From positions 62,001-126,000 of the forward strand of contig JAKAGV010000001.1 of assembly GCA_021815405.1 (NCBI GenBank): a stretch of 64,000 nucleotides of DNA, given 5' to 3'. Made by a program: the position numbers and the translations under genes. The notes below the pieces were generated by a model, which ran no database searches, was not told the origin of the DNA, and was given only the letters and a program-made list of their open reading frames with translations. Positions 30,127-50,928 of the stretch are shown here, one piece after another (within the stretch, counting starts at the first letter, position 1; each line of letters opens with the position of its first letter). The DNA comes from Bacteroidota bacterium (GTDB taxonomy: Bacteria > Bacteroidota > Ignavibacteria > Ignavibacteriales > Ignavibacteriaceae).

Positions 30127-31167
30127 ATGATTACAAAACCAATTGACTTACGCAGTGACACTGTAACTAGACCATCTCAGGAAATGCGCAAAGTAATGTA
30201 CGAAGCTGAGGTCGGTGACGACGTGTTTCAGGAAGACCCAACAGTTAATGAGCTTCAGGAATATGCTGCAGAGCTCCTTGGAAAAGAAGACGCTCTTTTT
30301 GTTTCAAGCGGAGTAATGGGAAACCAGATTTGTTTAAGGGTTCTTACTTCTCCGGGCGATGAAGTGATTTGCGAAAGGGATGCGCACATTTTTCAATACG
30401 AATCGGGGTCTCCGGCTGTATTAAGCGGCATTCAGCTTATGCCCATTGAGGGCAAAGCAGGGGTAATAACTCCTGAACAAATTGAACCTTACATAAGACC
30501 AATCGAAGCATACTATATGCCGCGGACAAAAGTAATTGAATTGGAAAATACTCACAACCGTGCCGGTGGTACGATTCATCCAATAGAAAATATTCTTCGC
30601 GTTGAAAAGCTCGCGAAAAAATATAAATTAATGCTTCATCTTGACGGCGCTAGAATATGGAATGCATCGGTTGCTGCAAAGATTTCGGTCAAGGAGTATG
30701 CTTCACATTTTGATTCGGTTTCGTGCTGTTTATCGAAAGGACTTGGTGCGCCAATAGGCTCAATAATAGGCGGGACGAAAGAATTTATTAAAGAAGCTTT
30801 TAGAGTCCGAAAATCTTGGGGCGGCGGTATGCGGCAGATTGGAATAATTGCCGCAGCCGGTTTGTACGCTTTAAAAAACAATATCAATCGTCTTGAAGAA
30901 GACCATCGCAAAGCGAGAATGCTTGCCGAATCAATTGCAGAAATAACTTCTTGTGAGATTGATTTGAGTTCTGTTCAAACAAACATCGTCATTTTTAAAT
31001 CAAAAAATCTCAGCGTGTTTGAATCGATTGAGAGATGCAAAGAAGAAGGATTATTAATTTCGGAAGGCAAACCTGGATATTTAAGAATGATTACTCATCT
31101 TGATGTAAGCTTTGATGAGCTTGATAAAGCTAGAAAAATCCTAAATAATGTTTTCAACAAGAAATGA
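30127..31167 (+). CDS. ltaE: Low-specificity L-threonine aldolase
   Basis: PLP enzyme splitting threonine or allo-threonine to glycine and acetaldehyde. The 346-residue protein opens with DLRSDTVTRPSQEMR and contains GDDVFQEDPTVNELQ, the ENTHNRAGG loop, HLDGARIWNA and the PLP-binding Lys204 in SKGLGAPIGS. Length and motifs fit the fold-type I aldolase family. The thioesterase gene follows 9 bp downstream. Confidence 0.93.
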   Translation: MITKPIDLRSDTVTRPSQEMRKVMYEAEVGDDVFQEDPTVNELQEYAAELLGKEDALFVSSGVMGNQICLRVLTSPGDEVICERDAHIFQYESGSPAVLSGIQLMPIEGKAGVITPEQIEPYIRPIEAYYMPRTKVIELENTHNRAGGTIHPIENILRVEKLAKKYKLMLHLDGARIWNASVAAKISVKEYASHFDSVSCCLSKGLGAPIGSIIGGTKEFIKEAFRVRKSWGGGMRQIGIIAAAGLYALKNNINRLEEDHRKARMLAESIAEITSCEIDLSSVQTNIVIFKSKNLSVFESIERCKEEGLLISEGKPGYLRMITHLDVSFDELDKARKILNNVFNKK

Positions 31168-31176
31168 TAATTTAGA

Positions 31177-31605
31177 ATGAAAAGAGATATCCAATTATTT
31201 AAACATAAAATTAACGTCGAAGTAAGATTTTCTGACCTTGATGCGATGCGGCATGTTAATAATGCAAGATATTTAACTTACATAGAAGAAGCCCGCATAG
31301 CCTATTTCAACGATGTTCTTAACAGAGAAAGAAGTAGCCTAAAATACTCTGCAATTGTCGCCAAGATTGAAATAGATTATCTACAGCCGATAAACCTTGG
31401 AGATAAAGTCGAAGTATTTACGCGGGTGTCAAGGCTTGGCAATAAAAGTTCAGATGTTGAAAATTTAATTATGATTGAAAGAGACGGCAATAAATATGCG
31501 GCTGCATCAGCATTAACAAAATTGGTAGCGTACGATTATAAACAGCTTCAATCCATTCCGATACCGGAGGACCTAAGGTTTATGATTGAAGAGTTTGAAA
31601 AATAA
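31177..31605 (+). CDS. 4HBT-type acyl-CoA thioesterase
   Basis: A hot-dog-fold thioesterase of 142 residues with RFSDLDAMRHVNNARYLTYI, in which the Asp is the catalytic residue of the YbgC/4-hydroxybenzoyl-CoA class, then EIDYLQPINLGD. It converges on the ScfR-like regulator with 10 bp between stops. A second thioesterase closes the beta-oxidation operon at 41509. Its substrate is not predictable, but location suggests an acyl-CoA. Confidence 0.85.
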   Translation: MKRDIQLFKHKINVEVRFSDLDAMRHVNNARYLTYIEEARIAYFNDVLNRERSSLKYSAIVAKIEIDYLQPINLGDKVEVFTRVSRLGNKSSDVENLIMIERDGNKYAAASALTKLVAYDYKQLQSIPIPEDLRFMIEEFEK

Positions 31606-31615
31606 TTTCTTCGGA

Positions 31616-33118
31616 TTAGATCGTAAGTTTTTCTTTCAATTCCTGCAAGGCAGCTTCAAGTTTCTTTTCATGTTCAATTTTTAATGCACGGGTAGGAGGT
31701 GCTGCTCTCTCTTTACAATCGGTAATTGTACATCTTTCACAAGTATCATTGACAATTTTTATCGGAATCAATGAGTCGGATAAAAATTTTATTTTGTTGG
31801 TTAAGGAATCATCAATCTGAAAGCCGATAGTTAAGCTGGACACATAATTCTTAAACAGTGTCTCTCTTTGTGCAACTGAAATTGATAAATATTCATCTCC
31901 TGATCCAAAGAATTTTGAATGTAAAATACCGGCAGTCCTTTCCTTGAAGTTTTTATTTCTTTTAATTGCAGAGGTCATTCTTTGCAGTGTTTCAAAGGAG
32001 ACCCACCTTCTGCAATAATGTTCATCAGAATGGAGCTCATTAAAATTTCTTTGTGAATTCAGCCTTAGTTCACTAGACAAATTATATGTCTTTCTGTCAA
32101 TGTCATGATTAAGGCGAAAGAAGAAAAATTTATTTAGCCCAAAATATTTCGGAGTAAGGTTAGCAACCCGCTGGAAGAACATTTCTGTGGTTGAATTGTA
32201 AGAATTTATAATTGTTAAAAGTTTATTTTCATCCCATTTTGGCATTTTGAAAAATTTTTCTAAATCCTCAACAAGAAAATCTGAGTTAACCAGTAATGCA
32301 GTTGAAAAGTAAGACACCTTAAAATAATTAAGAAGATGATCAAAGGTATTAAGCTTTAATCCGGGATAGATTAGACTTCTGTCTTTTATTCCTAAAAAAT
32401 TATAAGCCAGTTCTTTGCAGATAATAAAAGTTCTTTGTGCTTCGGAAAGTTTATTATTCAACAGTAACTTATTCTTTTTTCCCTTCAAAACAACTGCTCT
32501 AATCTCATCCAACCCCGGATTATCATTCATGGATGATTCATTTATTTCGTAAAAATATTTTTTTTCAAGAATTGATTTTACCTGTTCATATCCAATCCGC
32601 CTTGTATGTTTAATTTTATTTTCCTTAATGAAATTGTCAACAGCGGCCTCAATATCTTCGAAATAATTTTCATTGAACTCTTTGAAGTTTCTCAATGCAT
32701 TTCTGCTAAAACTATTTTGGCTTAATTCCGATGATTGCGCGGTTTCAATAAAAGTGGCAATCAAGGCGCTAAGCTGCATTGAGGAGTTGGACATCAAAAA
32801 AATTAATTTGTTAATATCGATACCGTAATGGTCAAGTGGCAGCTGCTCTAGAATATTAGATTCCAAAAGTTCTTCAATTGGTGCAAGATTTCTTGCAAGC
32901 TTCAACGAGACCAGCTTATCGAACGAAGTTCCGAGTGTTTCGGCTAGTGATGCAATTTTGTCTTCCTTCGGATATTTTTTGCCGGATTCAATTTCATTTA
33001 AATATGAAATTGATAAACCGCTTTTATCAGACAAATCGGACAATGATAACTTCTTATCCTGTCTTAATTGCTTCAATTTCAATCCAAAAATCAACCGGAT
33101 GTATTTCTTTTTTATCAT
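31616..33118 (-). CDS. ScfR/RamB-type XRE regulator with degenerate IrrE-like domain
   Basis: A 500-residue regulator. Residues about 14-72 are an XRE helix-turn-helix (LSDKSGLSISYLNEIESGKK). The middle (about 200-300) resembles the IrrE/M78 domain, but the zinc-protease HExxH is replaced by CKELAYNF, so it is likely a sensor and not a protease. The C-terminus has CERCTITDCKERAAPP, the hallmark of short-chain acyl-CoA-responsive regulators (ScfR, RamB, PrpR families). It is divergent from the acyl-CoA synthetase operon across 176 bp that contain a perfect 14-bp palindrome, so it probably controls that operon and itself through an acyl-CoA signal. Confidence 0.8.
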   Translation of the reverse strand: MIKKKYIRLIFGLKLKQLRQDKKLSLSDLSDKSGLSISYLNEIESGKKYPKEDKIASLAETLGTSFDKLVSLKLARNLAPIEELLESNILEQLPLDHYGIDINKLIFLMSNSSMQLSALIATFIETAQSSELSQNSFSRNALRNFKEFNENYFEDIEAAVDNFIKENKIKHTRRIGYEQVKSILEKKYFYEINESSMNDNPGLDEIRAVVLKGKKNKLLLNNKLSEAQRTFIICKELAYNFLGIKDRSLIYPGLKLNTFDHLLNYFKVSYFSTALLVNSDFLVEDLEKFFKMPKWDENKLLTIINSYNSTTEMFFQRVANLTPKYFGLNKFFFFRLNHDIDRKTYNLSSELRLNSQRNFNELHSDEHYCRRWVSFETLQRMTSAIKRNKNFKERTAGILHSKFFGSGDEYLSISVAQRETLFKNYVSSLTIGFQIDDSLTNKIKFLSDSLIPIKIVNDTCERCTITDCKERAAPPTRALKIEHEKKLEAALQELKEKLTI

Positions 33119-33147
33119 ATCTGCTAAAAGGTGTAATATTTTTGTGC

Positions 33148-33155
33148 CAAATATA
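33148..33155 (-). promoter_or_regulatory. Candidate -7 promoter element (TATATTTG) for the regulator gene
   Basis: On the minus strand TATATTTGG lies 30 nt before the regulator start and matches TAnnTTTG; no consensus -33 box is clear. Confidence 0.4.
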
Positions 33156-33191
33156 TCAAATTAAATTTTAAATTGGTAAAAATTCATTATT

Positions 33192-33205
33192 AGCGAAATT
33201 TCGCT
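33192..33205. promoter_or_regulatory. Perfect 14-bp palindrome, candidate regulator operator
   Basis: AGCGAAATTTCGCT is fully self-complementary and stands in the intergenic region between the ScfR-like gene and the beta-oxidation operon, about 37 bp upstream of the minus-strand TATATTTG. No second copy was noticed in the window. Confidence 0.55.
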
Positions 33206-33294
33206 TGTGTTTTAAATTTTCGATTTTTATATTGGTGTAAGGTTATCATGAATTAAAGGAATCATTTCGGGAAAACAGAGAATAAGGAAAATTA

Positions 33295-35076
33295 GTGGCT
33301 GAAATTAAAAGATTGATAGACATTCTGCCTTATCAAATAGAACACTTCCCGAGGATGGATTCTATTAGTGATAAGAAGAACGGAATATGGCAAAAGCATA
33401 GTTCGATTGAAGTCAAGGAAATTGTCGATAGATTTAGCCTGGGTTTATTGAAAATGGGATTTAAACCAGGCGACAAATTTGCAATTATTTCGAATAACCG
33501 TTCTGAGTGGAACTTTGTTGATCTGGGAATTCTTCAAATGGGAGGCATTGATGTCCCAATATACCCCACGATGAGTGAAAAGGAATTCAATTATATTTTT
33601 AACGATTCGCAGGTTAAACTGGTTTTTGTATCGGATACGGATTTATATAATAAGGTTGAACGAGTAATTCCTAAAGCGAAATCAATTCAGGGTGTTTATA
33701 CATTTGATGAAGTTGACGGTGCTAAGAATTGGACAAATATTTTATCACTTGCTGATAATTCATTTAAGGATGAATTGTCTTCTATTCAAGCTTCAATAAA
33801 ATCGGAAGACCTTGCAACGATTATATATACCTCGGGTACAACTGGCGTTCCGAAAGGTGTAATGCTTTCACATAAAAATATTATCAGCAATATTCAGTCT
33901 TTAACCCAGATCATGCCGATGAGCTTTGAACATAGGATGATCAGTTTCCTTCCCATTTGTCACATATTTGAAAGAACGGCAATTTATTTTTATTTGTCAA
34001 TTGGTGCAGCAATTTATTATGCCGAAAGTCTGGAGAAGGTAGTTGAAAATTTCCAGGAAGTTAAGCCGAATTATTTTACAACAGTACCCAGGCTTCTTGA
34101 AAAAATTTATGAAAAGATAATGGAAAAGGGCAGAAGCCTAACCGGTCTTAAAAAATACATTTTTGGTTGGGCAGTTAATTTGGCAAATCATTATGATCCT
34201 GAAGGTAAGAATGATTGGTTTTACAATCTAAGGCTTGCTGTCGCACGGAAATTAGTCTTTAGCAAATGGATTGATGCACTTGGCAGTGAAGTAAAAGGAA
34301 TTATATGCGGGGCTGCCGTATTGCAGCCTAGGCTTGCAAGAATTTTTACTGCCGCCGGTATTCATATTTGTGAAGGATACGGACTTACCGAAACCTCACC
34401 TGTACTAACTTGTAATCTATTTGAAAAAGGTATGTATTGTTTAGGAACTGCAGGGTTATCAATTCCTGGAGTTAAAATTAGAATCGATGAAGATGGACAG
34501 ATATTAGCCAAGGGCGAAAATATTTTTAGCGGGTATTATAACAAGCCTGAGTTGACCGAACAAGCTTTCGATGAAGAGGGCTGGTTTCGAACCGGTGACA
34601 TTGGCGAATTAATTGACGGAAGATTTTTGAAAATTACCGATAGGATGAATGAAGTATTTAAAACTTCCGGAGGAAAATTTGTTGCCCCACTCCCAATTGA
34701 AAATAAAATGAAAGAGTCATGGTTCATCAAAAATATTATGGTAATTGGAAAAGATAAAAAATTCGCCGCGGCGTTAGTTGTGCCTGATACCGTCTTTATT
34801 TTTAACTGGTGCAAGAAAAAAGGATTGGATAATTTATCCTTAAACGGCATGCTTCAATCGCCAATTGTGAAAGATAGAATCTGGAAGGACATTCAAAAAT
34901 ACAATAAAAGATTTTCCCACATCGAGCAGATAAAGAAGTTTGAGATTTTATCTGATGACTGGACCATTGAAACCGGCGAATTGACGCCGACTCTAAAATT
35001 GAAAAGAAAAATAATTTTAGAAAAGTATAAAGACATTATCGAAAAAATTTATAGTGAAGAAGAAACAAAAAATTAA
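33295..35076 (+). CDS. Long-chain acyl-CoA synthetase (AMP-binding)
   Basis: Activates fatty acids to acyl-CoA through an acyl-adenylate. The 593 residues have the AMP-binding loop TIIYTSGTTGVPKGVMLSHK, YGLTETSPV, and WFRTGDIGELIDGRFL with the late catalytic Lys in KTSGGKFVAP. The start is GTG with AAGGA 8 nt upstream. It is the first gene of the run to 41964, 14 bp before the hydroxyacyl-CoA dehydrogenase, so fatty-acid activation and oxidation are co-transcribed. Confidence 0.93.
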   Translation: MAEIKRLIDILPYQIEHFPRMDSISDKKNGIWQKHSSIEVKEIVDRFSLGLLKMGFKPGDKFAIISNNRSEWNFVDLGILQMGGIDVPIYPTMSEKEFNYIFNDSQVKLVFVSDTDLYNKVERVIPKAKSIQGVYTFDEVDGAKNWTNILSLADNSFKDELSSIQASIKSEDLATIIYTSGTTGVPKGVMLSHKNIISNIQSLTQIMPMSFEHRMISFLPICHIFERTAIYFYLSIGAAIYYAESLEKVVENFQEVKPNYFTTVPRLLEKIYEKIMEKGRSLTGLKKYIFGWAVNLANHYDPEGKNDWFYNLRLAVARKLVFSKWIDALGSEVKGIICGAAVLQPRLARIFTAAGIHICEGYGLTETSPVLTCNLFEKGMYCLGTAGLSIPGVKIRIDEDGQILAKGENIFSGYYNKPELTEQAFDEEGWFRTGDIGELIDGRFLKITDRMNEVFKTSGGKFVAPLPIENKMKESWFIKNIMVIGKDKKFAAALVVPDTVFIFNWCKKKGLDNLSLNGMLQSPIVKDRIWKDIQKYNKRFSHIEQIKKFEILSDDWTIETGELTPTLKLKRKIILEKYKDIIEKIYSEEETKN

Positions 35077-35090
35077 AACAAGAAATAATC

Positions 35091-37496
35091 ATGAAAAAAA
35101 TTATAAAAGAAGTAGCAGTTTTAGGTTCCGGTGTTATGGGCTCTCGGATCGCCGCACATTTTGCGAATATCGGCTGTAAAGTATATCTCCTTGATATTGT
35201 TCCGAAAGAACTGACTGAAAAAGAAAAGAAAGAAGGTCTTTCTTTAAACGACAAAAAATTTCGAAATAGAATAGTAAATGAGAATCTGAAAAACGTTCTC
35301 GTTGCAAAGCCTTCACCAATTTATCTCCAATCACTCGCTTCAAGAATTGTTGCCGGAAACTTTGAAGATGATTTGAATGTTTTAAAAAATGTTGATTGGA
35401 CAATCGAAGCCGTTGTAGAAAACTTGGAGATCAAAAAAAGTATTTTTGACAAGATCGAAAAATTCCGCAAACCTGGTTCGCTTATTACAACCAACACTTC
35501 GGGTATTCCGGTTCATTTGATGACTGAAGGACGAAGCGAAGATTTTCAAAATAATTTTTGTGGCGCTCACTTCTTTAATCCGCCAAGATACCTTCAGCTT
35601 TTGGAAGTTATTCCAACTCCAAAAACCAGTCAAGATGTAATTGACTTTTTGATGAGTTACGGAAGTTTATTCCTTGGTAAGACAACAGTTCTTTGCAAAG
35701 ATACGCCAGCGTTTATTGCAAACAGAATCGGTGTATTCAGCATGATGGCAGTATTTAAGCTGATGGATGAATTGAAGCTTTCAATAAAAGAAATTGATAC
35801 TCTAACAGGACCATTGACAGGCAAACCAAAGTCGGCAACTTTTAGAACTTGCGATGTAGTTGGAATAGATACGCTGGTTAAAGTTGCAAACAATGTTTAT
35901 AAAGATTGTCCAGAAGATGAAATGCGCCAGTTGTTTTCAATTCCGGATTATGTAAATAAGATGGTTGAGAAAAATTGGCTAGGCGATAAAACGGGCCAAG
36001 GATTTTACAAAAAATCGAAAAATGAAAAAGGCGAAAAAGAAATTCTTGAACTGGATGTAAACTCATTTGAATATAAACCTAGCGGCAAATCTAAGTTTGC
36101 ATCGGTTACGGCAGCTAAGCCGATCGAAAACTTGCGCGACAGATTGAAAGCTTTACATGCTGCACAGGATAAAGCCGGAGAATTTTTACGGCTGCTTTCA
36201 TTCAATATTTTTAGTTATGCTTCGTATCGTGTTCCGGAAATTGCAGATGAAATTTATAAAATTGATGATGCAATGCGTGCTGGCTTTGGATGGGAGCTTG
36301 GTCCTTTTGAAACTTGGGATGTTCTCGGTGTAGAAAAAATGAGCAAGCTTATGGAAGAAGCGAAGCTTCCACCTTCAAACTGGGTAAAAGAAATGCTAGC
36401 GAAGGGATTCAAAACTTTTTACCAGGTTGAAAACGGCAAGAGAAAATTTTATGATCAAAATACTTTTACTTATAAAGAAATTCCTGGCAAAGATAATTTT
36501 ATAATTCTTGATAACTACCGTTCGAATAAACCGGTCTGGCAGAATTCCGGTGCTACTCTTCACGATATTGGCAATGGCGTGCTTGATCTTGAATTCCAAA
36601 CAAAGATGAATACTATTGGAACGGAAATTCTTGAAGCGATAAATAAATCAATTGAGATTGCGGAGAAAGATTTTGCCGGTTTGGTAATTGCAAACAATGG
36701 ACAAAATTTTTCTGCCGGTGCAAATTTAGCAATGATGTTCATGCTTGCAACTGAACAAGAGTATGATGAAATTGATTTAGCAGTTAGAACTTTTCAAAAT
36801 GCATCGATGCGGATACGTTATTCAAGCATACCAGTTGTTGTTGCACCTCATAATCTTGTACTTGGCGGCGGATGCGAGTTCTGTTTACATGCAGATAAAA
36901 TCCAAGCTTCTGCTGAAACTTATATCGGGTTGGTTGAAGTTGGAGTTGGAATTATTCCTGCGGGCGGAGGCACTAAAGAAATGACTCTGCGGGCTTCAGA
37001 TAATTACGCAGAAGGTGAAGTAGAATTTCCAGAGCTTCAAAAAAGATTTATGAACATTGCAACTGCAAAAGTTGCTACATCGGCTTTAGAAGCTTTTGAG
37101 ATGGACATTTTCAAAAAAGGAAGAGATGAAATAACAATCAATCCTAACAAAGTAATTATGGATGCGAAGCAATCGGTTCTTGCTTTGGCAGAAAAAGGTT
37201 ACTCGCAGCCAATTCAAAGAGAAGATATAAAAGTCCTCGGCAGAGAAGCGTTAGCAACATTGTTATTAGGTGCATATTCATTCAGGATGGGAAATTATAT
37301 CTCAGATCATGACAAGAAGATAGTCGAGAAGCTGGCTTACATAATGAGCGGAGGCGATTTAACTCAAGGTTCTTTTGTATCTGAAAAATATTTACTTGAT
37401 CTCGAAAGAGAAGCGTTTCTGAGCCTGATTGGAGAAAAGAAAACTTTGGAAAGAATTCAGAGTATTTTAACGACTGGTAAACCGTTACGGAACTAG
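35091..37496 (+). CDS. fadN: 3-hydroxyacyl-CoA dehydrogenase / enoyl-CoA hydratase fusion (FadN-like)
   Basis: Two beta-oxidation steps in one 801-residue protein. The N-terminal half is the NAD-dependent dehydrogenase (VAVLGSGVMGSRIAAHFAN at about 8, GAHFFNPPRYLQLLEVIP, and the C-terminal dehydrogenase helices). From about 495 to 680 is a crotonase fold (NGQNFSAGANLAMMF, NLVLGGGCEFCLHADKIQ, EVGVGIIPAGGGTKEM). Order dehydrogenase-then-hydratase is that of Bacillus FadN and not of E. coli FadB. The thiolase follows after 60 bp, completing the cycle. Confidence 0.92.
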   Translation: MKKIIKEVAVLGSGVMGSRIAAHFANIGCKVYLLDIVPKELTEKEKKEGLSLNDKKFRNRIVNENLKNVLVAKPSPIYLQSLASRIVAGNFEDDLNVLKNVDWTIEAVVENLEIKKSIFDKIEKFRKPGSLITTNTSGIPVHLMTEGRSEDFQNNFCGAHFFNPPRYLQLLEVIPTPKTSQDVIDFLMSYGSLFLGKTTVLCKDTPAFIANRIGVFSMMAVFKLMDELKLSIKEIDTLTGPLTGKPKSATFRTCDVVGIDTLVKVANNVYKDCPEDEMRQLFSIPDYVNKMVEKNWLGDKTGQGFYKKSKNEKGEKEILELDVNSFEYKPSGKSKFASVTAAKPIENLRDRLKALHAAQDKAGEFLRLLSFNIFSYASYRVPEIADEIYKIDDAMRAGFGWELGPFETWDVLGVEKMSKLMEEAKLPPSNWVKEMLAKGFKTFYQVENGKRKFYDQNTFTYKEIPGKDNFIILDNYRSNKPVWQNSGATLHDIGNGVLDLEFQTKMNTIGTEILEAINKSIEIAEKDFAGLVIANNGQNFSAGANLAMMFMLATEQEYDEIDLAVRTFQNASMRIRYSSIPVVVAPHNLVLGGGCEFCLHADKIQASAETYIGLVEVGVGIIPAGGGTKEMTLRASDNYAEGEVEFPELQKRFMNIATAKVATSALEAFEMDIFKKGRDEITINPNKVIMDAKQSVLALAEKGYSQPIQREDIKVLGREALATLLLGAYSFRMGNYISDHDKKIVEKLAYIMSGGDLTQGSFVSEKYLLDLEREAFLSLIGEKKTLERIQSILTTGKPLRN

Positions 37497-37556
37497 TCTA
37501 CGTAATTAATTTTAATAAGAATAAAATGAATTTAAAAATTAAATAAAAGAATAATT

Positions 37557-38732
37557 ATGAGAGAAGCATATATAGTTGCGGGATATAGGTCAGCAGTCGG
37601 CAAAGCTAAAAAAGGCGGCTTTAGATTTTTTAGACCGGATGACCTTGCCGCTGAAGTTATTAAACATTTGTTGAAATCCGTTCCTCAATTAGATCCTCAT
37701 CGAGTTGATGATTTGATTGTAGGTAACGCGGTACCGGAAGCAGAACAAGGTTTGCAGGTGGGAAGAATGATTGCACTCCAATGTCTGCCAATTGAAGTCC
37801 CCGGCGAGACGATTAATAGATATTGTGCATCGGGGGTTGATACAATTGCAACCGCTGTTGCACGTATCCGTTCTGGAATGATGGATTGTGTTATTGCTGG
37901 AGGAACTGAATCAATGTCGATGGTTCCGGTTACCGGATGGAAGCTTTCTCCAAATTATAAGTTTGCAGTTGAACATCCGGAATACTATCTCGGCATGGGA
38001 TTAACGGCGGAAGAGGTTGCAAAGGATTATAAAATTTCTCGTGAAGCGCAAGATGAATTTTCTTATCGCTCTCACATGAAAGCAGTAAGCGCAATTAAGA
38101 ATGGTTTCTTTAAAGATGAAATTGTTCCGATTGAAGTTGAAGAAGTTTATCTTGACAACGGAAAGAAAAAATCTAAAAAATTTGTCGTCGATACTGATGA
38201 AGGCCCAAGACCCGATACAACTTTGGAAGCGCTGGCAAAATTAAAACCAGTGTTCGCAGCAAATGGAACAGTTACTGCAGGAAATTCATCGCAGACCTCG
38301 GATGGTGCGGCATTCGTAGTTGTTATGTCGGAAGAAATGGTAAAAGAATTAAATCTTAAACCGATTGCTCGTCTGGTTTCTTATGCGCTTGCCGGAGTTG
38401 ATCCGAGGGTAATGGGAATCGGTCCGGTTGAAGCTGTTCCTAAAGCATTGAAGAAAGCAGGGATGAAATTGAACGACATTGATTTGATAGAGTTGAACGA
38501 AGCTTTTGCAGCGCAATCGCTTGCTGTAATTCAGGAACTAGGATTCAACCAAGAAGTAACAAATGTGAACGGCGGCGCAATAGCGTTAGGGCATCCGCTT
38601 GGCTGTACCGGCGCAAAGCTTACGGTTCAAATTTTAAATGAATTAAGAAGAAGACAAAAGAAATACGGACTTGTTACTGCTTGCGTAGGCGGTGGTCAAG
38701 GCGTTGCAGCAATTTATGAATTACTGAATTAA
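37557..38732 (+). CDS. fadA: Acetyl-CoA C-acyltransferase (3-ketoacyl-CoA thiolase)
   Basis: Cleaves 3-ketoacyl-CoA to acetyl-CoA and a shortened acyl-CoA. In 391 residues, the nucleophile is Cys90 in [10 protein letters not shown], the His motif is [19 protein letters not shown] and the second catalytic Cys lies in [10 protein letters not shown]. Length is the family standard. Between fadN and the dehydrogenase genes, it is the thiolase of this operon. Confidence 0.94.
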
Positions 38733-38761
38733 ACAATTTGAAATTAAAAAAAGGTGACTGA

Positions 38762-40555
38762 ATGTCTGTAGAAACAAAAAATTTAAGTTTATTGAAGGGT
38801 GGAGAATTTTTAATTAAAGATTCGGATCCGCAATCTATTTTTATTCCGGAAGATATTTCTGAAGAACAAAAACTGATGGCAGATTCTGCAAGAGAATTTG
38901 TTGAGAAAGAAATTTTACCGAAAGTAGATGCAATTGATCATCAAGAGCCGGGTCTGGTTGTAAGTCTACTTGAAAAAGCTGGCGAACTAGGATTGCTAAG
39001 CACTTCAGTTCCGGAAGAATACGGTGGACTCGGAGAAGACTTTAATACAAATACATTTATTTCAATGGAAATGGGTGCAAGTCATTCATTCGGAGTTTCA
39101 TTTGCCGCACACACTGGTATCGGCACACTTCCGATTCTTTATTACGGTACCGATGAGCAAAAAACAAAATATCTTTCTAAGCTCGCTTCCGGTGAAATGA
39201 AAGCAGCTTACTGTTTGACCGAACCAACATCAGGCTCGGATGCGCTTTCGGCAAAGACAACTGCAAAACTATCAGATGATGGGAAATATTATATTCTGAA
39301 TGGACAGAAGATGTGGATTACTAATGGTGGTTTTGCAGATATACTTATTACATTTGCCCAGGTTGATGGCGATAAGTTTACTTGCTTTATCATCGATACA
39401 AAGTCCGAAGGCTTTACGCGCGGTAAGGAAGAAGATAAGATGGGAATCAAAGGCTCATCAACTCGAGCGTTGTTTTTAGATAACGTGAAAGTTCCAAAGG
39501 AAAATATTCTTGGCGAAATTGGTAAGGGGCATTACATCGCATTCAATATTTTGAATATCGGAAGATTTAAATTATGTGCGATGACTACAGGCGGAGCGAA
39601 GCGAATTATGTCCAACGCAGTTGAATATGCTAACGGTAGAAAACAATTTGGTCAGCCTATTTCAAATTTTGGTGCAATCAAATATAAACTTGCAGAACAG
39701 GCTATAAGAATTTTCGTTTCTGAATCTGCAACACTGAGAACTAGTGGATTGATCAGTAACAAAGTTAAAGAATTAGTTGCGGCAGGTTCGACTTATAATC
39801 AGGCTTTAATAGCGGCTGCTGAAGAGTATGCAATTGAGTCTGCAATGCTGAAAGTGTTTGGTTCGGAGATGCTTAATTATGTTGTTGATGAAACAGTGCA
39901 GATATTCGGCGGCTACGGCTATTCGGAAGAATATCCAGCTGCAAGAGCATACCGCGATTCTAGAATCAACAGAATTTTTGAAGGCACGAATGAAATTAAC
40001 CGATTGCTGACTGTTGATATGCTTGTTAAGCGTTCGATGAAAGGGCGATTAGATTTAATGGGCCCGGCGATGGCAATTCAAAAAGATTTAATGTCAGTTC
40101 CTTCATTCGGTGAGAAGCCGGAAGGACTTCTTGCAAAAGAATTGGCAGCGATAAGAGAAGCTAAAAAAGCAATTCTGATGATTGCTGGTTCGGCTGTTCA
40201 AAAATTTATGATGAAGCTTGCCGATGAGCAGGAAATCATAATGAATGTCACGGATATGCTGATAGAAGTTTATACATCGGAGTCAGCAATTTTAAGAACG
40301 CTTAAACTTGCATCAACCAAAGGTGAAGAAACAGTTTTGCCTTATTCTGAAATGACACAAGTTTACGTTAGTGATTCTTTGGAAAGAGTAAATATTTACG
40401 GTAAACATGCAATTGCTGCATTCGCTGAAGGCGACGAGCTGAAAATGCTCTTGCTCGGTCTGAAGAGATACACTAAGTTTGATCCGGTAAATACGACTAA
40501 ACTCAGAAGAAATATTGCCGCAAGACTTATTGAAGCAGGCAAGTATTGTTTCTGA
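38762..40555 (+). CDS. fadE: Acyl-CoA dehydrogenase, long form with C-terminal extension
   Basis: First oxidative step of beta-oxidation. At 597 residues it is about 200 longer than classical enzymes and matches the Bacillus FadE class. Motifs include YCLTEPTSGSDALSAKTTAK, WITNGGFADILITFAQ, RKQFGQPISNFGAIKYK and QIFGGYGYSEEYPAARAYRD with RIFEGTNEINR. The extra C-terminal helical region (about 410-597) may interact with a partner such as an electron-transfer flavoprotein. GGTGA lies 3 nt before the ATG. Confidence 0.93.
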   Translation: MSVETKNLSLLKGGEFLIKDSDPQSIFIPEDISEEQKLMADSAREFVEKEILPKVDAIDHQEPGLVVSLLEKAGELGLLSTSVPEEYGGLGEDFNTNTFISMEMGASHSFGVSFAAHTGIGTLPILYYGTDEQKTKYLSKLASGEMKAAYCLTEPTSGSDALSAKTTAKLSDDGKYYILNGQKMWITNGGFADILITFAQVDGDKFTCFIIDTKSEGFTRGKEEDKMGIKGSSTRALFLDNVKVPKENILGEIGKGHYIAFNILNIGRFKLCAMTTGGAKRIMSNAVEYANGRKQFGQPISNFGAIKYKLAEQAIRIFVSESATLRTSGLISNKVKELVAAGSTYNQALIAAAEEYAIESAMLKVFGSEMLNYVVDETVQIFGGYGYSEEYPAARAYRDSRINRIFEGTNEINRLLTVDMLVKRSMKGRLDLMGPAMAIQKDLMSVPSFGEKPEGLLAKELAAIREAKKAILMIAGSAVQKFMMKLADEQEIIMNVTDMLIEVYTSESAILRTLKLASTKGEETVLPYSEMTQVYVSDSLERVNIYGKHAIAAFAEGDELKMLLLGLKRYTKFDPVNTTKLRRNIAARLIEAGKYCF

Positions 40556-40590
40556 GATTTTAAATTTTTGAAAAACTATTGAAAGAAACT

Positions 40591-41478
40591 ATGTCGGATA
40601 AAGTTTTTGCTCAGCCTATGCTGAAGGAAGATTCACTTAAGGGAAAAGTAATTTTAATTACCGGCGGAGGAACAGGGCTTGGCAAAGCGATGGGAAAATA
40701 TTTTACACAGCTTGGTGCTGATTTAATTATTGCTAGCCGGAAACTCGATGTTCTTGAAAAAACTGCGGTTGAAATAGAAAAGGGAACCAGCAGAAAAGTT
40801 TTACCGGTTCAATGTGATATTACTAATTATGATCAAGTTGAAAATTTATTGAAACTTTCTTTGGAAAAATTTGGTAAAGTTGATTCTCTAGTTAATAATG
40901 CTGCTGGAAATTTCATTAGCCCAACGGAGAGATTATCCCACCGTGCATTCGACATAATTGTAAATATTGTTTTGAAGGGAACTTATTATTCTACTTTAAC
41001 TTTTGGCAAGCATTGGATAAAAGAAAAACAACCAGCTTCAGTTTTGAATATAGTTACGACGTATGCTTGGACCGGCTCTGCATACGTCGTTCCTTCAGCA
41101 GTTGCAAAAGCCGGAGTATTAGCATTGACACGCTCTCTTGCTGTTGAATGGGCAAAGTATGGAATTCGATTTAATGCAATTGCGCCAGGTTTATTCCCAA
41201 CAAAAGGAGCTTGGGAGAGATTACTTCCCGGAAATATTTCTGAAAAATTTAATCCAGTAATAAAAATACCGGTTGGTAGAACCGGTGAGCACCAGGAATT
41301 AGCAAACTTAGCCGCTTATCTTGTTTCGGATTTCTCTTCTTTTATCAATGGTGAAGTTGTTACGATTGACGGCGGAGAATGGCTGAAAGGTGCTGGACAG
41401 TTTAATATGCTTGAATTGGTTCCAACTGAAATGTGGGATGAAATTGAAAAAGCAGTAAGAAACGTGAAAGGCAGATAG
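40591..41478 (+). CDS. SDR, 2,4-dienoyl-CoA reductase-like
   Basis: Short-chain dehydrogenase of about 295 residues. The ATG at 40591 is chosen; a TTG at 40579 would add four residues. It has the Rossmann motif ITGGGTGLGKAMG and NNAAGNFISPTE. The classical Tyr-x3-Lys is replaced by the DECR-type pattern TYAWTGSAYVVPSAVAKAG, in which the Tyr and Lys are farther apart, as in 2,4-dienoyl-CoA reductases that handle polyunsaturated chains. Its place inside the beta-oxidation operon supports that role. Confidence 0.83.
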   Translation: MSDKVFAQPMLKEDSLKGKVILITGGGTGLGKAMGKYFTQLGADLIIASRKLDVLEKTAVEIEKGTSRKVLPVQCDITNYDQVENLLKLSLEKFGKVDSLVNNAAGNFISPTERLSHRAFDIIVNIVLKGTYYSTLTFGKHWIKEKQPASVLNIVTTYAWTGSAYVVPSAVAKAGVLALTRSLAVEWAKYGIRFNAIAPGLFPTKGAWERLLPGNISEKFNPVIKIPVGRTGEHQELANLAAYLVSDFSSFINGEVVTIDGGEWLKGAGQFNMLELVPTEMWDEIEKAVRNVKGR

Positions 41479-41508
41479 TAACTGCAATTATTTAATGGAG
41501 AAAAATTT

Positions 41509-41964
41509 TTGAAACCAATTAAGAATAAAAAGCTATTCAAACATACTTATGACGTCGTTGTAAATTTTAATGAAGTCGATATGCTTCATATTCTTAACAA
41601 TGCTGTATATTTCAGCTATTTCGAACAGGCAAGAATTAAATATGCTAAAGATTTGGGAATCCTTCCTAAAGAAGGAATCGCAGAAAATGGATCGGCGTTC
41701 TACATGGCAAGGAACGAAATCGATTATTTGAAAGTAGCCCTATTCGAAGACAGGTTGCGAATATACACTCGAGTTCCGTATATTAAGCACAGCAGTTTTG
41801 GATTCGAGCATATAATTGAAAATATTTCGACGAAGAAAATAATTGCTGAAGGTGCCGGTGTGCTTGTGCATGTAAATCCGGTGACAAAAAAATCTATTCC
41901 GCTTTCGGAAGAGTTTAAGAAGGCGGTCTTAAAATTTGAAAAGAGAGTCAAAATAATTCGATAA
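41509..41964 (+). CDS. 4HBT-type acyl-CoA thioesterase, second copy
   Basis: A 151-residue hot-dog thioesterase with VNFNEVDMLHILNNAVYFSYF (the Asp is the predicted catalytic residue) and NEIDYLKVALFED. The start is TTG at 41509 with GGAG 8 nt before it; no ATG is nearby. It closes the fatty-acid operon and could release blocked or surplus acyl-CoA. It is a distant relative of 31177-31605, not a recent duplicate. Confidence 0.85.
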   Translation: MKPIKNKKLFKHTYDVVVNFNEVDMLHILNNAVYFSYFEQARIKYAKDLGILPKEGIAENGSAFYMARNEIDYLKVALFEDRLRIYTRVPYIKHSSFGFEHIIENISTKKIIAEGAGVLVHVNPVTKKSIPLSEEFKKAVLKFEKRVKIIR

Positions 41965-41984
41965 CAATTTGTCGAGGGGACAAA

Positions 41985-42674
41985 ATGAGAAAAATAGTTT
42001 TTGACATTGAAACTTGTGCCTTTCAATTTGAATCACTTTCCGAAAGCCAGAGGGAATATTTATTGCGCTACGCAGAGAGAGAAAAAGATGAAATTTCCAA
42101 AGATGAAAAGATTGACGAAGCTATTCGTTTCCTCAGTTTGTATCCGCTAACAGCTAAAGTAATAGCAATTGGCTTACATGACGTCCAGAAAGAAAAATCA
42201 TTTGTTTATTTTGAAAGTGAATCAGAAGATGAATGGACATCGGAGTCAAAAGACATTCAATATAAAGGCGCTTCCGAAGCCGAAATGCTGAAATCGTTTT
42301 GGAGAATTGCGGAGAAAACCGACCAGTTTATTTCTTTCAACGGAAGAAATTTTGATATCCCTTTTCTCATGGTGCGTTCAGCTTTGAATAAAATAAAGCC
42401 GACAAAAAATTTAATGTCAAACCGCTACGATACTTCACACCACATAGATTTACTAGATCAGTTTACCTTTTACGGAATTACAAAAAAATTCAATCTGGAT
42501 TTTTATTGTCATTCTTTCGGAATTGAATCGCCGAAATCAAAAGGTATTTCCGGAATGGAAGTGAAAACGCTTTACGAAGCTGGACGTATAAAAGATATTG
42601 CTGTTTATTGTGGACAAGATATTCTAGCTACCGCCGAGCTTTATAGAATTTGGGAAGAGTATCTGCACTTTTAG
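41985..42674 (+). CDS. Predicted 3'-5' exonuclease related to DNA polymerase B
   Basis: A 229-residue DEDD-type exonuclease: exo I VFDIETCAFQF, exo II SFNGRNFDIPFL, and a late exo III region with YCGQDILATAELYRIW. The family (DNA_pol_B_exo2) is stand-alone in several bacteria and likely acts on single-stranded DNA, but its process is not known. It starts 20 bp after the thioesterase and probably shares the transcript. Its TAG stop overlaps the TAA stop of the converging amidotransferase gene. Confidence 0.85.
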   Translation: MRKIVFDIETCAFQFESLSESQREYLLRYAEREKDEISKDEKIDEAIRFLSLYPLTAKVIAIGLHDVQKEKSFVYFESESEDEWTSESKDIQYKGASEAEMLKSFWRIAEKTDQFISFNGRNFDIPFLMVRSALNKIKPTKNLMSNRYDTSHHIDLLDQFTFYGITKKFNLDFYCHSFGIESPKSKGISGMEVKTLYEAGRIKDIAVYCGQDILATAELYRIWEEYLHF

Positions 42675-43369
42675 TGATATAATTTTTCCAGTTTGTCCAG
42701 AAGCGTTAGCATTATTTTGTTATTGCTTGGTATTAAATATTTTTGAGATAAGATTTCTTTAGCAATCTGAACATACTTTTCGTTCTTCAATTCATTCTCG
42801 CCAGATTCAAGCATTTCAATTAAAGAACTTTTGGTAACTTCGCAGTGGAACTGGAGTGCAAGTACTCTGTCCTTAATAATGAATGCCTGGTTCTTGCAAG
42901 CCTCGCTTTCTGCAAGATGAACGGCACCGGCAGGTAAATCAAAAGTATCGCCATGCCATTGAAATACTTTCAACTTTTTCGGTAAAGAAGAAAATAGAAA
43001 ATTATCCTTTGAGCTATCGGTAAGTCCTACATCCATCCATCCAATTTCCTTGAACTTATTTGGATATACTTTTGCACCTAATGATGCAGCAATCAACTGA
43101 GAGCCTAAACAAATTCCCAAAACGATTTTATTGTTTTCAATAGACTGCCTGATAAATTCCTTCTCTGATTTTAGCCATGGAAATTTATCTTCGTCATAAA
43201 CTCCCATTGGTCCGCCCATAATAATCAGCCAGTCGAAATCATTTATTCCTGGAAGCTTATCACTTTTATAAAATTTAGTGGAAGTAAGATTATAATTTTT
43301 CTCTTTAATCCATTCTACAATAATGCCGGGACTTTCAAAACTCTCGTGTTGGAGTATGTGTATTCTCAT
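42671..43369 (-). CDS. Class-I glutamine amidotransferase-like protein
   Basis: A 232-residue protein of the GMP synthase-like amidotransferase class. It has GPMGVYDEDKFPWL, the nucleophile elbow GICLGSQLIAASLGAK and the His of the triad in LALQFHCEVT. It lacks a synthetase partner domain, so it may be an ammonia donor or peptide/gamma-glutamyl hydrolase. Divergent from purL by 155 bp and converging on the exonuclease with overlapping stop codons. Confidence 0.85.
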   Translation of the reverse strand: MRIHILQHESFESPGIIVEWIKEKNYNLTSTKFYKSDKLPGINDFDWLIIMGGPMGVYDEDKFPWLKSEKEFIRQSIENNKIVLGICLGSQLIAASLGAKVYPNKFKEIGWMDVGLTDSSKDNFLFSSLPKKLKVFQWHGDTFDLPAGAVHLAESEACKNQAFIIKDRVLALQFHCEVTKSSLIEMLESGENELKNEKYVQIAKEILSQKYLIPSNNKIMLTLLDKLEKLYH

Positions 43370-47802: not shown

Positions 47803-48240
47803 ATGACAGTTATATTTTCAAAAAAATGCGAATACGGTTTACAAGCGGTTTTATATCTTTCCGCAAAAGGGATTGGTGAAATCGTATCTGCTGACGAGAT
47901 TGCCAAGAAGCTGAATATTCCCAAAGAGTTTGTCTCTAAAATTCTGCAAAGCCTAACGGAGAGCGGATTGGTTAATTCCAAGAAGGGAAAGGCTGGCGGC
48001 TTTTCTCTTGCAAAGGAGCCGTCAAAAATCAGATTGATTGATATTGTAGCAGCCATTGACGGATTGGGAATGTTCAATACTTGCGTGCTTGGTTTTCCAA
48101 GTTGTTCACCTGACCATCCGTGCCCCCTTCATGAGAAGTGGGGATCACTTAGAAGCAGTACTTATAATATGCTGACTGAACAAACACTGGATGAACTTAA
48201 AGAAAAGACTTTAAACAAAATTGCTCACTTAGAGGCTTAA
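47803..48240 (+). CDS. Rrf2-family Fe-S regulator, NsrR-like
   Basis: A 145-residue winged-helix regulator with FSKKCEYGLQAVLYLSAKG, the recognition region LNIPKEFVSKILQSLTESGL and the wing SKKGKAGGFSLAK. Three C-terminal cysteines, Cys94, Cys101 and Cys107, in FNTCVLGFPSCSPDHPCP have the spacing of Fe-S-binding Rrf2 proteins such as NsrR and IscR. The genes that follow (nitrite reductase, RIC, hemerythrin) point to NO sensing, so NsrR is the best guess; no isc genes are nearby. Matching sites precede this gene and the next, suggesting repression of both until NO damages the cluster. Confidence 0.85.
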   Translation: MTVIFSKKCEYGLQAVLYLSAKGIGEIVSADEIAKKLNIPKEFVSKILQSLTESGLVNSKKGKAGGFSLAKEPSKIRLIDIVAAIDGLGMFNTCVLGFPSCSPDHPCPLHEKWGSLRSSTYNMLTEQTLDELKEKTLNKIAHLEA

Positions 48241-48259
48241 AAATTTTTTATCTATAAAT

Positions 48260-48275
48260 CAGATAAAAATATCCG
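48260..48275. promoter_or_regulatory. Candidate Rrf2 operator, copy 2
   Basis: CAGATAAAAATATCCG, an imperfect palindrome (CAGATA/TATCCG) 2 bp before the polyferredoxin ATG. It resembles the site at 47777 and leaves no room for a Shine-Dalgarno sequence. Confidence 0.55.
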
Positions 48276-48277
48276 AT

Positions 48278-49441
48278 ATGAAAGCAAAGAAGAAAATAGT
48301 AAGAAACTTAGAAAAGCCGATTCAAAAATACCGGTTTTTAATTCAGTCTTGCTTTGCCGCATTGTGCCTTTGGATAGGATATGATTTTTACCGCTTCGTT
48401 CATTTTTTGGAATCGAATGGAAGTGCAGAATATTTTAGAAGACCGTCGGGAGTCGATGGATTTTTGCCAATCAGTTCGCTGATGAGCACCTATTATTTTA
48501 TTTCCACCGGGATAATTAACCCAGCGCATCCGGCAGGGATGTTCATCTTTCTTGCCATTGTGCTGGTGTCGATTGTGTTTGGAAAATCATTCTGCTCGTG
48601 GCTGTGCCCAATTGGATTTATTTCAGAATTAGTCGGCGACTTCGGCGAGAAGATTTTTAAAAGAAAATTGAAACTTCCAAAATGGATTGATATACCGCTG
48701 AGAAGCCTAAAATATATTCTGCTTGGATTTTTTGTTTATGCAATTTTTGTTTTGATGAACTTGGTTGCAGTCAAAGCATTCTTAGACAGTCCATACAATC
48801 AGGTTGCTGATTTAAAGATGTATTATTTCTTTGCAGACATCTCAAAGACTGCGCTGATAGTCATCGGTTCTTTGCTTGTGCTGTCGATTTTCATCAGAAA
48901 TTTCTGGTGCAGATTTCTTTGCCCGTACGGCGCACTTCTCGGGATTTTTTCTTTCTTGAGTCCCCACAAAATTAAGCGGAATCCGGTAAGCTGCATTGAC
49001 TGCGGCTTATGTGCAAAAGCTTGTCCTTCTTCAATTAAAGTTGACAAAGTTTTGACGGTATATTCAGACGAATGTAACACGTGTTTAAGCTGCGTTGATG
49101 CATGTCCGGTTGAAGATACTCTTGATTTAAAATCTGTTTTTACCAAGAAAAGAATTTCAAAAAAATATGTAGCCATCGGAGTAGTATCGATTTATATGTT
49201 AGTTATTGGTTTTGCGATGATTACAGGACACTGGAAAAATAATATTACAAGAGATGAATACTTAGTCCATTATAAATTAATGGATACTTACGGACATCCG
49301 ACCGGCACTGCTGCGATAAAAGAGTTTGATGAAAAAGCAGCCGAAAAAGAATTACAAGATGAAAATAGCATCAGTAAAAAAGATGAGAAGTCAGATAAAG
49401 ACAAAATCAGCAACACAATCCGCCAGAAGCGGATTAATTGA
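48278..49441 (+). CDS. NapH/NosR-like membrane polyferredoxin
   Basis: A 387-residue electron-transfer protein. About five membrane helices carry two CxxxCP motifs, SFCSWLCPIGF and NFWCRFLCPYGA, typical of NapH/NosR/CcoG proteins, followed by two [4Fe-4S] motifs, CIDCGLCAKACPSSI and CNTCLSCVDACP. There is no N-terminal FMN domain, so it is the NapH form and not full NosR. It probably passes quinol electrons across the membrane to the nitrite reductase encoded 14 bp downstream. The C-terminus after residue 355 is a charged periplasmic or cytoplasmic tail. Confidence 0.85.
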   Translation: MKAKKKIVRNLEKPIQKYRFLIQSCFAALCLWIGYDFYRFVHFLESNGSAEYFRRPSGVDGFLPISSLMSTYYFISTGIINPAHPAGMFIFLAIVLVSIVFGKSFCSWLCPIGFISELVGDFGEKIFKRKLKLPKWIDIPLRSLKYILLGFFVYAIFVLMNLVAVKAFLDSPYNQVADLKMYYFFADISKTALIVIGSLLVLSIFIRNFWCRFLCPYGALLGIFSFLSPHKIKRNPVSCIDCGLCAKACPSSIKVDKVLTVYSDECNTCLSCVDACPVEDTLDLKSVFTKKRISKKYVAIGVVSIYMLVIGFAMITGHWKNNITRDEYLVHYKLMDTYGHPTGTAAIKEFDEKAAEKELQDENSISKKDEKSDKDKISNTIRQKRIN

Positions 49442-49455
49442 GTGAAGGAGATGTA

Positions 49456-50928
49456 ATGAATATTTTAAAAAATAAAAAAGCGATAATTGGCGTATCAACA
49501 GCAGTGGTTTTAATTGTTGCTGCAGTTATTCTAATGTTTGGTTTTGAAGGCGCAGATTCTAACCGAATTGAAGGGATTGAATATGCACAGCTTACTTATG
49601 CACCTGAAGTACCTCGTCCAATTACCCGGGACTATCCTACAAAAGTAATCGTTAAGCTTGAAGCAATTCAAGTAACAGGAAGATTGGCGGATGGAGTTCA
49701 ATATAACTTTTGGACGTTCGGTGGAAAAGTTCCTGGTGAATTTATCCGTGTGCGTGAAGGAGATGAAGTTGAATTCCACCTTGAGAACAGCCCGTTCTGC
49801 AATGTTCCGCATAGCATTGATTTGCATGCAGTAAGCGGACCGGGCGGTGGTGCGGTTGCTTCACAAACTGTTCCAGGGCATTCTTCAGTATTTACTTTTA
49901 AAGCCGAACATGCCGGGCTTTATATTTACCATTGTGCAACTCAGCCGGTACCTCTTCATATAGCAAACGGTATGTATGGATTGATTTACGTTCAGCCCAA
50001 AAAAGATTTGCCAAAGGTTGATCACGAATTTTACATTATGCAAAGTGAATTTTATACTAACGGCAATTACGGCGATCCGGGTTTGCAGGCTTTCTCTCTG
50101 GATAAAGCTCTTGCCGAAGATCCAACCTACGTTGTTTTCAATGGCTCTGTCGGAGCCTTGACCGGTGATAACGCAATTCATGCAAAGGTAGGACAAACGG
50201 TTAGACTTTTCGTCGGTAACATAGGTCCAAATTTAACATCTTCATTTCACGTTATCGGAGTAATTTTCAACAAAGTTTATTTATTCGGCGGAACAAACGT
50301 AACTCAAAAGGATGTTCAGACGGTAAACATTCCAGCAGGAGGTGCCGCAGTTGTAGAGTTCAAAGTTGATGTGCCAGGAACATATACAATTGTCGACCAT
50401 TCAATCTTTAGAGCCTTTAATAAAGGTGCAGTCGGTTCACTTGTGGTTACTGGTAAGCCAAACAAAGAAATTTTCTCCGGCAAACAACAGGATAATTTAT
50501 TTTATGGTTCGGATCTCGACAAACAAGTTCAAGCAAGCAACAATCAAAGTGTCTCCGATAATTCAACTGTTGGAAATAGTATTGAAGATATTGTTGCTGC
50601 AGGTAAGAAAGTATTTTCAACAACTTGCTTTGCATGTCATCAGCCGGATGCGAAAGGCATTGCCGGAGTTTTTCCACCACTTGCGGGATCTGATTTCTTA
50701 AATGCAAATAAAGATCGTGCAATCGAAATAGTACTTCACGGAAAAACAGGACCTGTTACAGTTAACGGAAAGCAGTTCAACAATACAATGCCGCCACAGC
50801 CGTTAAATGATGAACAGATTGCATCTGTGTTGACTTACGTTTACTATTCTTTCGGCAACTCAGGTAAAATAGTAACTAAAGACGAAGTAGCAAAGATACG
50901 CGCTGAAAAACAAGTCACTTTAAAATGA
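49456..50928 (+). CDS. nirK: Copper nitrite reductase fused to cytochrome c
   Basis: Reduces nitrite to NO. The ATG at 49456 follows AAGGAG; 490 residues start with one membrane anchor or signal segment (about 9-29). Two cupredoxin domains are present. The type-1 copper ligands are His119, Cys160, His168 and Met173 (IYHCATQPVPLHIANGM); type-2 ligands are His124, His159 and His315; the catalytic Asp122 and His265 are present. The C-terminal 110 residues are a cytochrome c domain with Cys391-x2-Cys394-His395 (CFACH) and a Met445 ligand. Fusion gives a built-in electron donor, as known in some Ralstonia-type enzymes. Confidence 0.93.
   Translation: MNILKNKKAIIGVSTAVVLIVAAVILMFGFEGADSNRIEGIEYAQLTYAPEVPRPITRDYPTKVIVKLEAIQVTGRLADGVQYNFWTFGGKVPGEFIRVREGDEVEFHLENSPFCNVPHSIDLHAVSGPGGGAVASQTVPGHSSVFTFKAEHAGLYIYHCATQPVPLHIANGMYGLIYVQPKKDLPKVDHEFYIMQSEFYTNGNYGDPGLQAFSLDKALAEDPTYVVFNGSVGALTGDNAIHAKVGQTVRLFVGNIGPNLTSSFHVIGVIFNKVYLFGGTNVTQKDVQTVNIPAGGAAVVEFKVDVPGTYTIVDHSIFRAFNKGAVGSLVVTGKPNKEIFSGKQQDNLFYGSDLDKQVQASNNQSVSDNSTVGNSIEDIVAAGKKVFSTTCFACHQPDAKGIAGVFPPLAGSDFLNANKDRAIEIVLHGKTGPVTVNGKQFNNTMPPQPLNDEQIASVLTYVYYSFGNSGKIVTKDEVAKIRAEKQVTLK

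Follow-up and report, generated by a model that had tools for sequence, protein, structure and literature searches.

The 64,000-nt stretch of DNA analysed here (the window), which belongs to a genome of the Ignavibacteriaceae, carries the gene of a 500-aa regulator (31616..33118, minus strand) divergent from a plus-strand operon for fatty acid β-oxidation (fad operon). We propose, with a probability of roughly 0.7, that this regulator is a divergent relative of the ScfR/IsaR-type proteins PrpR, RamB and PccR and works like them, i.e. that it responds to acyl-coenzyme A (acyl-CoA), governs the fad operon and has kept its operator while its target changed. Control of the fad operon by the regulator is well supported by genome comparison, in which the pairing of both units, a putative operator at the predicted fadD promoter and the absence of this operator where the regulator is gone all point in the same direction. 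In most other Bacteroidota examined the regulator–operator unit is best read as serving the glyoxylate shunt, so that the target would have changed and the operator stayed. PrpR, RamB and PccR handle short-chain assimilation by the methylcitrate cycle, the glyoxylate shunt and the methylmalonyl pathway, and a clade that governs a whole β-oxidation operon via a conserved operator would extend the ScfR family to upstream fat catabolism. It would also be a clear example from nature of a regulator that retains its DNA site while the target operon changes. Literature searches found nothing on the regulator–fad pairing or on the motif, which does not by itself settle priority.

The regulator is paired with a β-oxidation operon

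An initial annotation had described the regulator as divergent from a full β-oxidation operon and had suggested that a fatty-acid-derived CoA controls the whole cycle. The open reading frames (ORFs) bear out the arrangement, with the regulator on the minus strand and six genes on the plus strand, separated by an intergenic region of 176 bp (33119..33294). Searches with Pfam and NCBIfam models identified an AMP-binding, FadD-type acyl-CoA ligase (33295..35076), a FadB/FadN-type protein with 3-hydroxyacyl-CoA dehydrogenase and enoyl-CoA hydratase domains (35091..37496), a FadA thiolase (37557..38732), a FadE-type acyl-CoA dehydrogenase (38762..40555; 832 bits with the NCBIfam FadE model, cut-off 600) and a 4HBT_2 hotdog acyl-CoA thioesterase (41509..41964). 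The annotated steps of activation, oxidation, hydration, thiolysis and thioester cleavage are hereby confirmed, while the dienoyl reduction is a best match below threshold: the short-chain dehydrogenase/reductase (SDR) at 40579..41478 comes closest to 2,4-dienoyl-CoA reductase with 276 bits (cut-off 318). FadB additionally carries the 3-hydroxyacyl-CoA dehydrogenase step, which had not been named. From FadD to the thioesterase the intergenic gaps measure at most 60 bp, and a terminator scan found no terminator-like sites on the plus strand within them.

Among 59 close genomes the regulator is present in 17 (E < 1e-50; matches to the helix-turn-helix (HTH) domain only, in G041, G052 and G057, were not counted). 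The FadB of the operon occurs at ≥70% identity in 18 of them, comprising all 17 regulator-bearing genomes and G024, and G044 has a FadB homologue at 52% identity. The pairing of regulator and operon exceeds chance (Fisher p 6e-14, a value that is indicative only, the genomes being related). Conservation of the gene neighbourhood, which had been suggested as a check, was found in two sets of loci with 12 testable loci in common: fadD neighbours the regulator divergently in 15/16 loci of the one and in 24/25 named loci of the other. One contig end (L031 = L050) accounts for the exception in both sets, and this genome was left out of the pairing count. The named near relatives are Melioribacteraceae, Ignavibacteria and unplaced 'Bacteroidetes' metagenome-assembled genomes. 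Since the pair is kept without ltaE/lnt found nearby in five loci (L044, L045, L049, L053, L060), it outlasts the flanking synteny.

In the class as a whole (294 genomes) the regulator was detected in 27 genomes and a close FadB (≥70%) in 19, of which 18 have the regulator; 29 further genomes have FadB at 43–56% identity. The other nine regulator-bearing genomes belong to the families f14 and f25. In the close relative G024 (L086, G024:C44) the fad operon adjoins a thioesterase (TE1) with no regulator between, and the operator described below is also absent; this joint loss, a single case, is suggestive. The idea that the regulator-less promoter of L086 had gained a consensus −35 was dropped, as it concerned one case with an ambiguous alignment.

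A conserved putative operator adjoins the predicted fadD promoter

Two boxes, overlooked in the initial annotation, lie on the plus strand of the intergenic region. Box 2 (33192..33205; AGCGAAATTTCGCT) is a perfect palindrome and matches AGCGAAWWTTCGCT exactly, as no other site in the genome does, while box 1 (33175..33188; GGTAAAAATTCATT, consensus AGCAAAaaTTCaTt) is degenerate and begins 17 bp ahead of box 2. The target promoter has the pair of similar boxes expected for ScfR/IsaR-type regulators, with box 2 found in 27/27 regions and box 1 in its degenerate form. All 27 regulator–fadD intergenic regions contain [AG]GCGAAWWTTCGCT followed by TG, and no operator match occurred in 56,000 mononucleotide shuffles of these regions and the regulator-less one.

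The predicted fadD promoter (33205..33233, plus strand; TTGTGT – 17 nt – TATATT) has its first base in common with box 2: the TTGnnn that forms the −35 begins with the final T of the palindrome. In 22/27 fad promoters a −10-like hexamer with at most two mismatches from TATATT follows after a spacer of 17 nt. If the predicted promoter is right, box 2 would be centred at about −41.5, the position of a class II activator; phage lambda CI, with the same kind of HTH as the regulator, works from about −42 in activating PRM. Several observations weigh against this part of our proposal: the −10 was chosen with spacers of 13–22 nt allowed and ties broken towards 17 nt, the proposed promoter goes undetected in a consensus promoter scan, and the −35 reads TTGACA in 6/27 fad promoters as well as in the glyoxylate-facing loci L067, L088 and L090, which equally suits a repressor.

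We consider activation the probable sign of the regulation, with repression or dual action as alternatives, because of the centre of box 2 near −41.5, the mostly non-consensus −35 (TTGTTT, TTGTGT or TTGCAT in most fad promoters) and the activating role of PrpR, PccR and Paracoccus RamB. A repressor, in which box 2 would block sigma at the −35 until acyl-CoA releases the regulator, is possible but the more doubtful choice. There is precedent in Bacillus, where TetR-type FadR represses until acyl-CoA releases it, and corynebacterial RamB is likewise repressive. Mycobacterial RamB is also described as repressive (PMC6765138). Contact of box 2 with the predicted −35 and the TTGACA promoters agree with such a role. 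On the other hand, a centre near −41.5 leaves the −35 and the −10 largely free, most −35 hexamers depart from TTGACA, and both PrpR and Paracoccus RamB activate (PMC6765138, PMC10370305).

As a mechanism we propose that dimers or a tetramer would bind both boxes (33175–33188 and 33192–33205), that a CoA ester together with an Fe–S cluster would set the state of the regulator, and that the bound regulator would switch a single promoter and with it activation, the oxidation steps, dienoyl reduction and thioester release.

It is highly improbable that the palindrome represents a terminator or another RNA structure instead of a protein site. A terminator scan does flag 33192–33205, but the stem comprises just five pairs with a weak tail and lies upstream of the predicted −10, outside any transcript from that start. 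Moreover, an Rfam search of 31000–42700 gave no match, and the palindrome accompanies the regulator across phyla.

Conservation and place, not rarity, distinguish the operator

Rarity of the motif does not support our proposal. At up to two mismatches, one match is present in the window compared to 1.9 expected by shuffling, and the own genome has 50 sites compared to 52 for the reversed pattern; its lone one-mismatch site falls within an ORF. A wider regulon in this genome was rejected, because 50 against 52 sites is the level of chance. The operator is instead distinguished by its conservation and its place. Within the class, an exact AGCGAAWWTTCGCT is present in 24 of the 27 regulator-bearing genomes versus 11 of the 267 others (Fisher p 1e-23, again only indicative for related genomes), and the reversed control pattern occurs in 22 of the 294. 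An operator site lies at most 200 bp from the regulator start in 22/27 regulator-bearing genomes, and G079, G190, G211 and G300 have AGCGAANNTTCGCT within this distance. When NN is allowed in the middle, the palindrome is found within 200 bp in 26/26 testable genomes, the 27th (G009) being cut by a contig end. Five of the 11 exact sites in regulator-less genomes were inspected and all five are within ORFs.

Stretches with regulator-less fad operons showed the operator in 0/9 cases. This contrast loses weight by the composition of the set, which includes one close genome (G024) and eight operons that are about 50% alike, and by a contig end that cuts the fadD upstream region of L099.

Genomes of family f25 (G190, G196, G270, G300, G306; L116–L130) hold 1–6 exact operator-like palindromes each, which lie outside ORFs in 12 of the 15 fetched stretches. 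By eye, some of these sites are upstream of glutamate synthase-like genes (L118, L122, L128), aspartokinase-like genes (L123, L127) and small exported-looking ORFs, and neither fad nor ace genes adjoin the f25 regulator in L089, L091 and L100. The palindromes possibly form a wider regulon; their position near unrelated genes weighs against our proposal.

Fold and cysteines resemble those of PrpR

The regulator combines an N-terminal XRE-type HTH (residues ∼12–72; Pfam HTH_3 48.4 bits, cut-off 23), as found in ScfR/IsaR-type proteins, with IrrE-like DIII and GAF-like domains recognized by fold and a C-terminal C-x2-C-x4-C. Foldseek searches with its AlphaFold model (42 sequences; mean predicted local distance difference test 84.6, predicted template modelling score 0.72) retrieved PrpR of Mycobacterium tuberculosis (MtPrpR; Rv1129c, IsaR/ScfR) as the best solved-structure matches (E 1e-10). 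Alignment with VIA-align gave Z 24.8–25.1 over 300–302 residues for 6cyj, 6cz6 and 6cyy and 21.1 for 6d2s, while PprI, the next other protein over the same region, reached Z 13.9. The sequence identity to MtPrpR is ∼15%.

The assignment meets some resistance at the sequence level. The Pfam family ScfRs (PF09856) reaches 15 bits where 24 are required, Pfam gave no match to M78 at E ≤ 1, and the NCBIfam RamB model (NF038139) is matched via its N-terminal half (1e-9, 37.6 bits versus a cut-off of 700), so the regulator is not a member of the RamB equivalog. Sequence searches against the PDB returned HTH domains and a few weak matches, with IrrE at E 1.4 and without PrpR. Furthermore, the site TTTGCAAA of mycobacterial PrpR is absent from 33119–33294 and differs from box 2. 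A PF09856 profile search of the own genome gave no match, the regulator scoring below the threshold, but 13 of 42 relatives match PF09856 at E ≤ 0.1, and NF038139 is matched by all 42 at E ≤ 1e-5. The PF09856 cut-off is a detection threshold and not a trait; the formal filing as ScfR is nonetheless provisional.

The initial annotation had recognized the CxxC-x4-C-x2-RA hallmark of acyl-CoA-responsive regulators, which corresponds to C460, C463, C468, R471 and A472, and had missed a fourth cysteine, C369. All four cysteines and H367 are invariant in 42/42 aligned relatives (L011 and L017 were excluded from alignment A1). In MtPrpR, a [4Fe4S] cluster is ligated by Cys447, Cys450 and Cys455 (C-x2-C-x4-C) together with Cys363 of the GAF-like domain, and CoA or a short acyl-CoA is held between the DIII and GAF-like domains (PMC6765138). 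By comparison, C369, C460, C463 and C468 of the window regulator probably form a [4Fe4S] site, in which C369 would be equivalent to PrpR C363, judged from its position and not from residue superposition.

The annotation had also pointed to the loss of HExxH from the IrrE-like domain. The position indeed reads KELAY (residues 235–239), but this is no special sign: HExxH is found in 0/42 relatives, which all have [KR]Exx[YFRH] there, and MtPrpR lacks it as well (PMC6765138), so that its absence is a family trait. IrrE/PprI and the HTH-M78 proteases share the DIII–GAF core fold (Z 12.4–13.9 for IrrE/PprI), but with HExxH replaced throughout, protease activity is not expected and a protease (IrrE/M78) reading was rejected.

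Taken with the invariant putative Fe–S ligands, the fold makes an acyl-CoA signal plausible. Judged from PrpR and RamB, the ligand is more likely to be a short CoA ester than a long one, and a long-chain fatty-acyl-CoA should not be assumed because the signals in the studied relatives are short CoA esters. That the regulator senses iron or redox state via its cluster, with CoA binding only vestigial, seems decidedly unlikely to us. The invariance of the four cysteines and the iron sensing proposed by the PrpR authors (PMC6765138) would fit, but the cluster of PrpR serves CoA retention, and most named neighbours of the regulator act in acyl- or acetyl-CoA metabolism.

Comparison with known systems shows both shared and distinct features. 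Like the window regulator, MtPrpR combines this fold with a C-x2-C-x4-C and a cysteine of the GAF-like region, lacks HExxH and is divergent from its target genes (PMC6765138, PMC3420887), which it activates; unlike it, MtPrpR controls methylcitrate cycle genes from TTTGCAAA, while β-oxidation and AGCGAAWWTTCGCT are concerned here. Paracoccus denitrificans RamB (class 2) is an activating, ScfR-type Fe–S protein that responds to CoA esters and needs two nearly identical boxes (PMC10370305), each of 14 bp as calculated from an 80-bp fragment. These boxes are 18 bp apart, in contrast to 3 bp in the window. Its gene is divergent from malate synthase/icl, as are those of the Bacteroidota orthologues of the window regulator, and its target is the glyoxylate cycle with methylmalyl-CoA as proposed ligand, as opposed to the β-oxidation target here. 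The window operon itself resembles another system. The fadNAE operon of Bacillus is under control of TetR-type FadR, a different superfamily of regulators, and has the same gene order FadB/FadN–FadA–FadE; the FadE model matched above its cut-off is of the Bacillus type.

Many orthologues with the same palindrome face glyoxylate shunt genes

The initial annotation had not noted that the majority of orthologues examined elsewhere lie opposite glyoxylate shunt genes. Of 24 non-ignavibacterial loci (L062–L085), 16 face malate synthase and isocitrate lyase, and Pfam searches of selected loci confirmed each of the two enzymes in four. Among these 16, 11 have AGCGAACGTTCGCT, two (Chitinophaga) a version one base longer and one (Calditrichota) a version with one mismatch; L082 has AGCGAAATTTCGCC farther from the regulator and L074 has none. 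Isocitrate lyase and malate synthase are likewise opposite the regulator in two ignavibacterial f14 genomes (L088, L090). In the window's own genome, a genome search found no isocitrate lyase, with controls matched in 8/14.

A phylum-wide sample contained the regulator in 46 of 247 genomes. Seven of these orthologues face fad genes, while 30 (22/23 + 8/16) of the other 39 (L142–L180) have malate synthase or isocitrate lyase next to them. Of all 39 loci, 31 contain the core GCGAA-1/4 nt-TTCGC and 24 (15 + 9) contain AGCGAA-2/3 nt-TTCGCT. The remainder weighs against a uniform picture, since 9/39 lack adjacent malate synthase or isocitrate lyase and face other or unnamed genes, and the core is missing in 8/39. 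By eye, L165 faces an aconitase-like ORF and L173 and L178 an adenylate kinase-like ORF, each with the palindrome core between or nearby. Residues 34–48 of the HTH are nearly identical in the fad-facing and glyoxylate-facing groups, which is what a shared DNA site would predict.

Opitutia-type loci (L062–L065, L077, L084) have fad-like genes near the regulator in 6/6 cases, with enzymes distant from those of the window. L063 (2206–11482) was read closely: there the genes for a hotdog protein (by eye), an SDR and the regulator point away from a group that comprises an AMP-ligase gene (Pfam), a thiolase, a FadB-like protein and, by eye, EtfA. The palindrome AGCGAAWWTTCGCC, with one end base changed, is present in all six loci ∼1.5–1.7 kb before the regulator, in L063 between the ligase and hotdog genes. 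A further copy, [AG]ACGAA, is visible by eye 17 bp farther on in 6/6.

A tree of 44 rows has a branch with support 100/100 that sets the 20 fad-facing ignavibacterial proteins apart from all others; the 17 glyoxylate-facing proteins need three changes. Five Opitutia rows are placed among the glyoxylate-facing rows (98/97 with L142). Because no ScfR outgroup was found (a plasmid search gave two Persicobacter matches), the tree is unrooted and shows no direction of the target change; a switch from the glyoxylate shunt to β-oxidation on two separate occasions would be the simpler reading.

These loci also bear on a purely local role, in which the regulator would control itself, the neighbouring operon would be a passenger of the divergent promoter and the operator would be conserved for autoregulation. 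We regard this as unlikely. Regulator and exact operator are indeed kept in L076 and L080, where malate synthase is a remnant or was not found, and regulator and operator persist in L173, L174 and L178 without either neighbour. Box 1 overlaps the −35 of a possible regulator promoter (33150..33179, minus strand; TTACCA – 18 nt – TATATT), matches to which are no commoner than in shuffles. In contrast, the pairing with the fad operon is strict and the geometry towards the fadD promoter is fixed, with the 17-nt spacer to the chosen −10 in 22/27. The Opitutia site is ∼1.5 kb away from the regulator gene, ahead of its gene group and beside the fad genes.

Returning to control of the fad operon by the regulator, we tentatively suggest that an Fe–S acyl-CoA sensor and its palindrome may have been carried nearly unchanged between glyoxylate-shunt and β-oxidation promoters at least twice, in Ignavibacteria and, with non-orthologous enzymes, in Opitutia. 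Fatty acid oxidation as a whole might then, in these bacteria, be gated by a short CoA ester and [4Fe4S] assembly rather than by a long-chain acyl-CoA sensor of the TetR or GntR type.

Further genes in the window

A second 4HBT_2 thioesterase gene (31177–31605) is convergent with the regulator gene and adjoins it in many related loci. An exonuclease-like ORF (by eye; 41985–42674), 20 bp past the thioesterase of the fad operon, stays near this operon in several relatives. A further acyl-CoA dehydrogenase-like ORF (by eye; 13659–14876) is distant from the fad operon, and the operator was not found nearby. Positions 47803–53861 hold ORFs resembling, by eye, an Rrf2-type regulator, a polyferredoxin, a copper nitrite reductase with cytochrome, and SCO-like and hemerythrin/RIC-type proteins, and are a possible nitrite/nitric oxide cluster.

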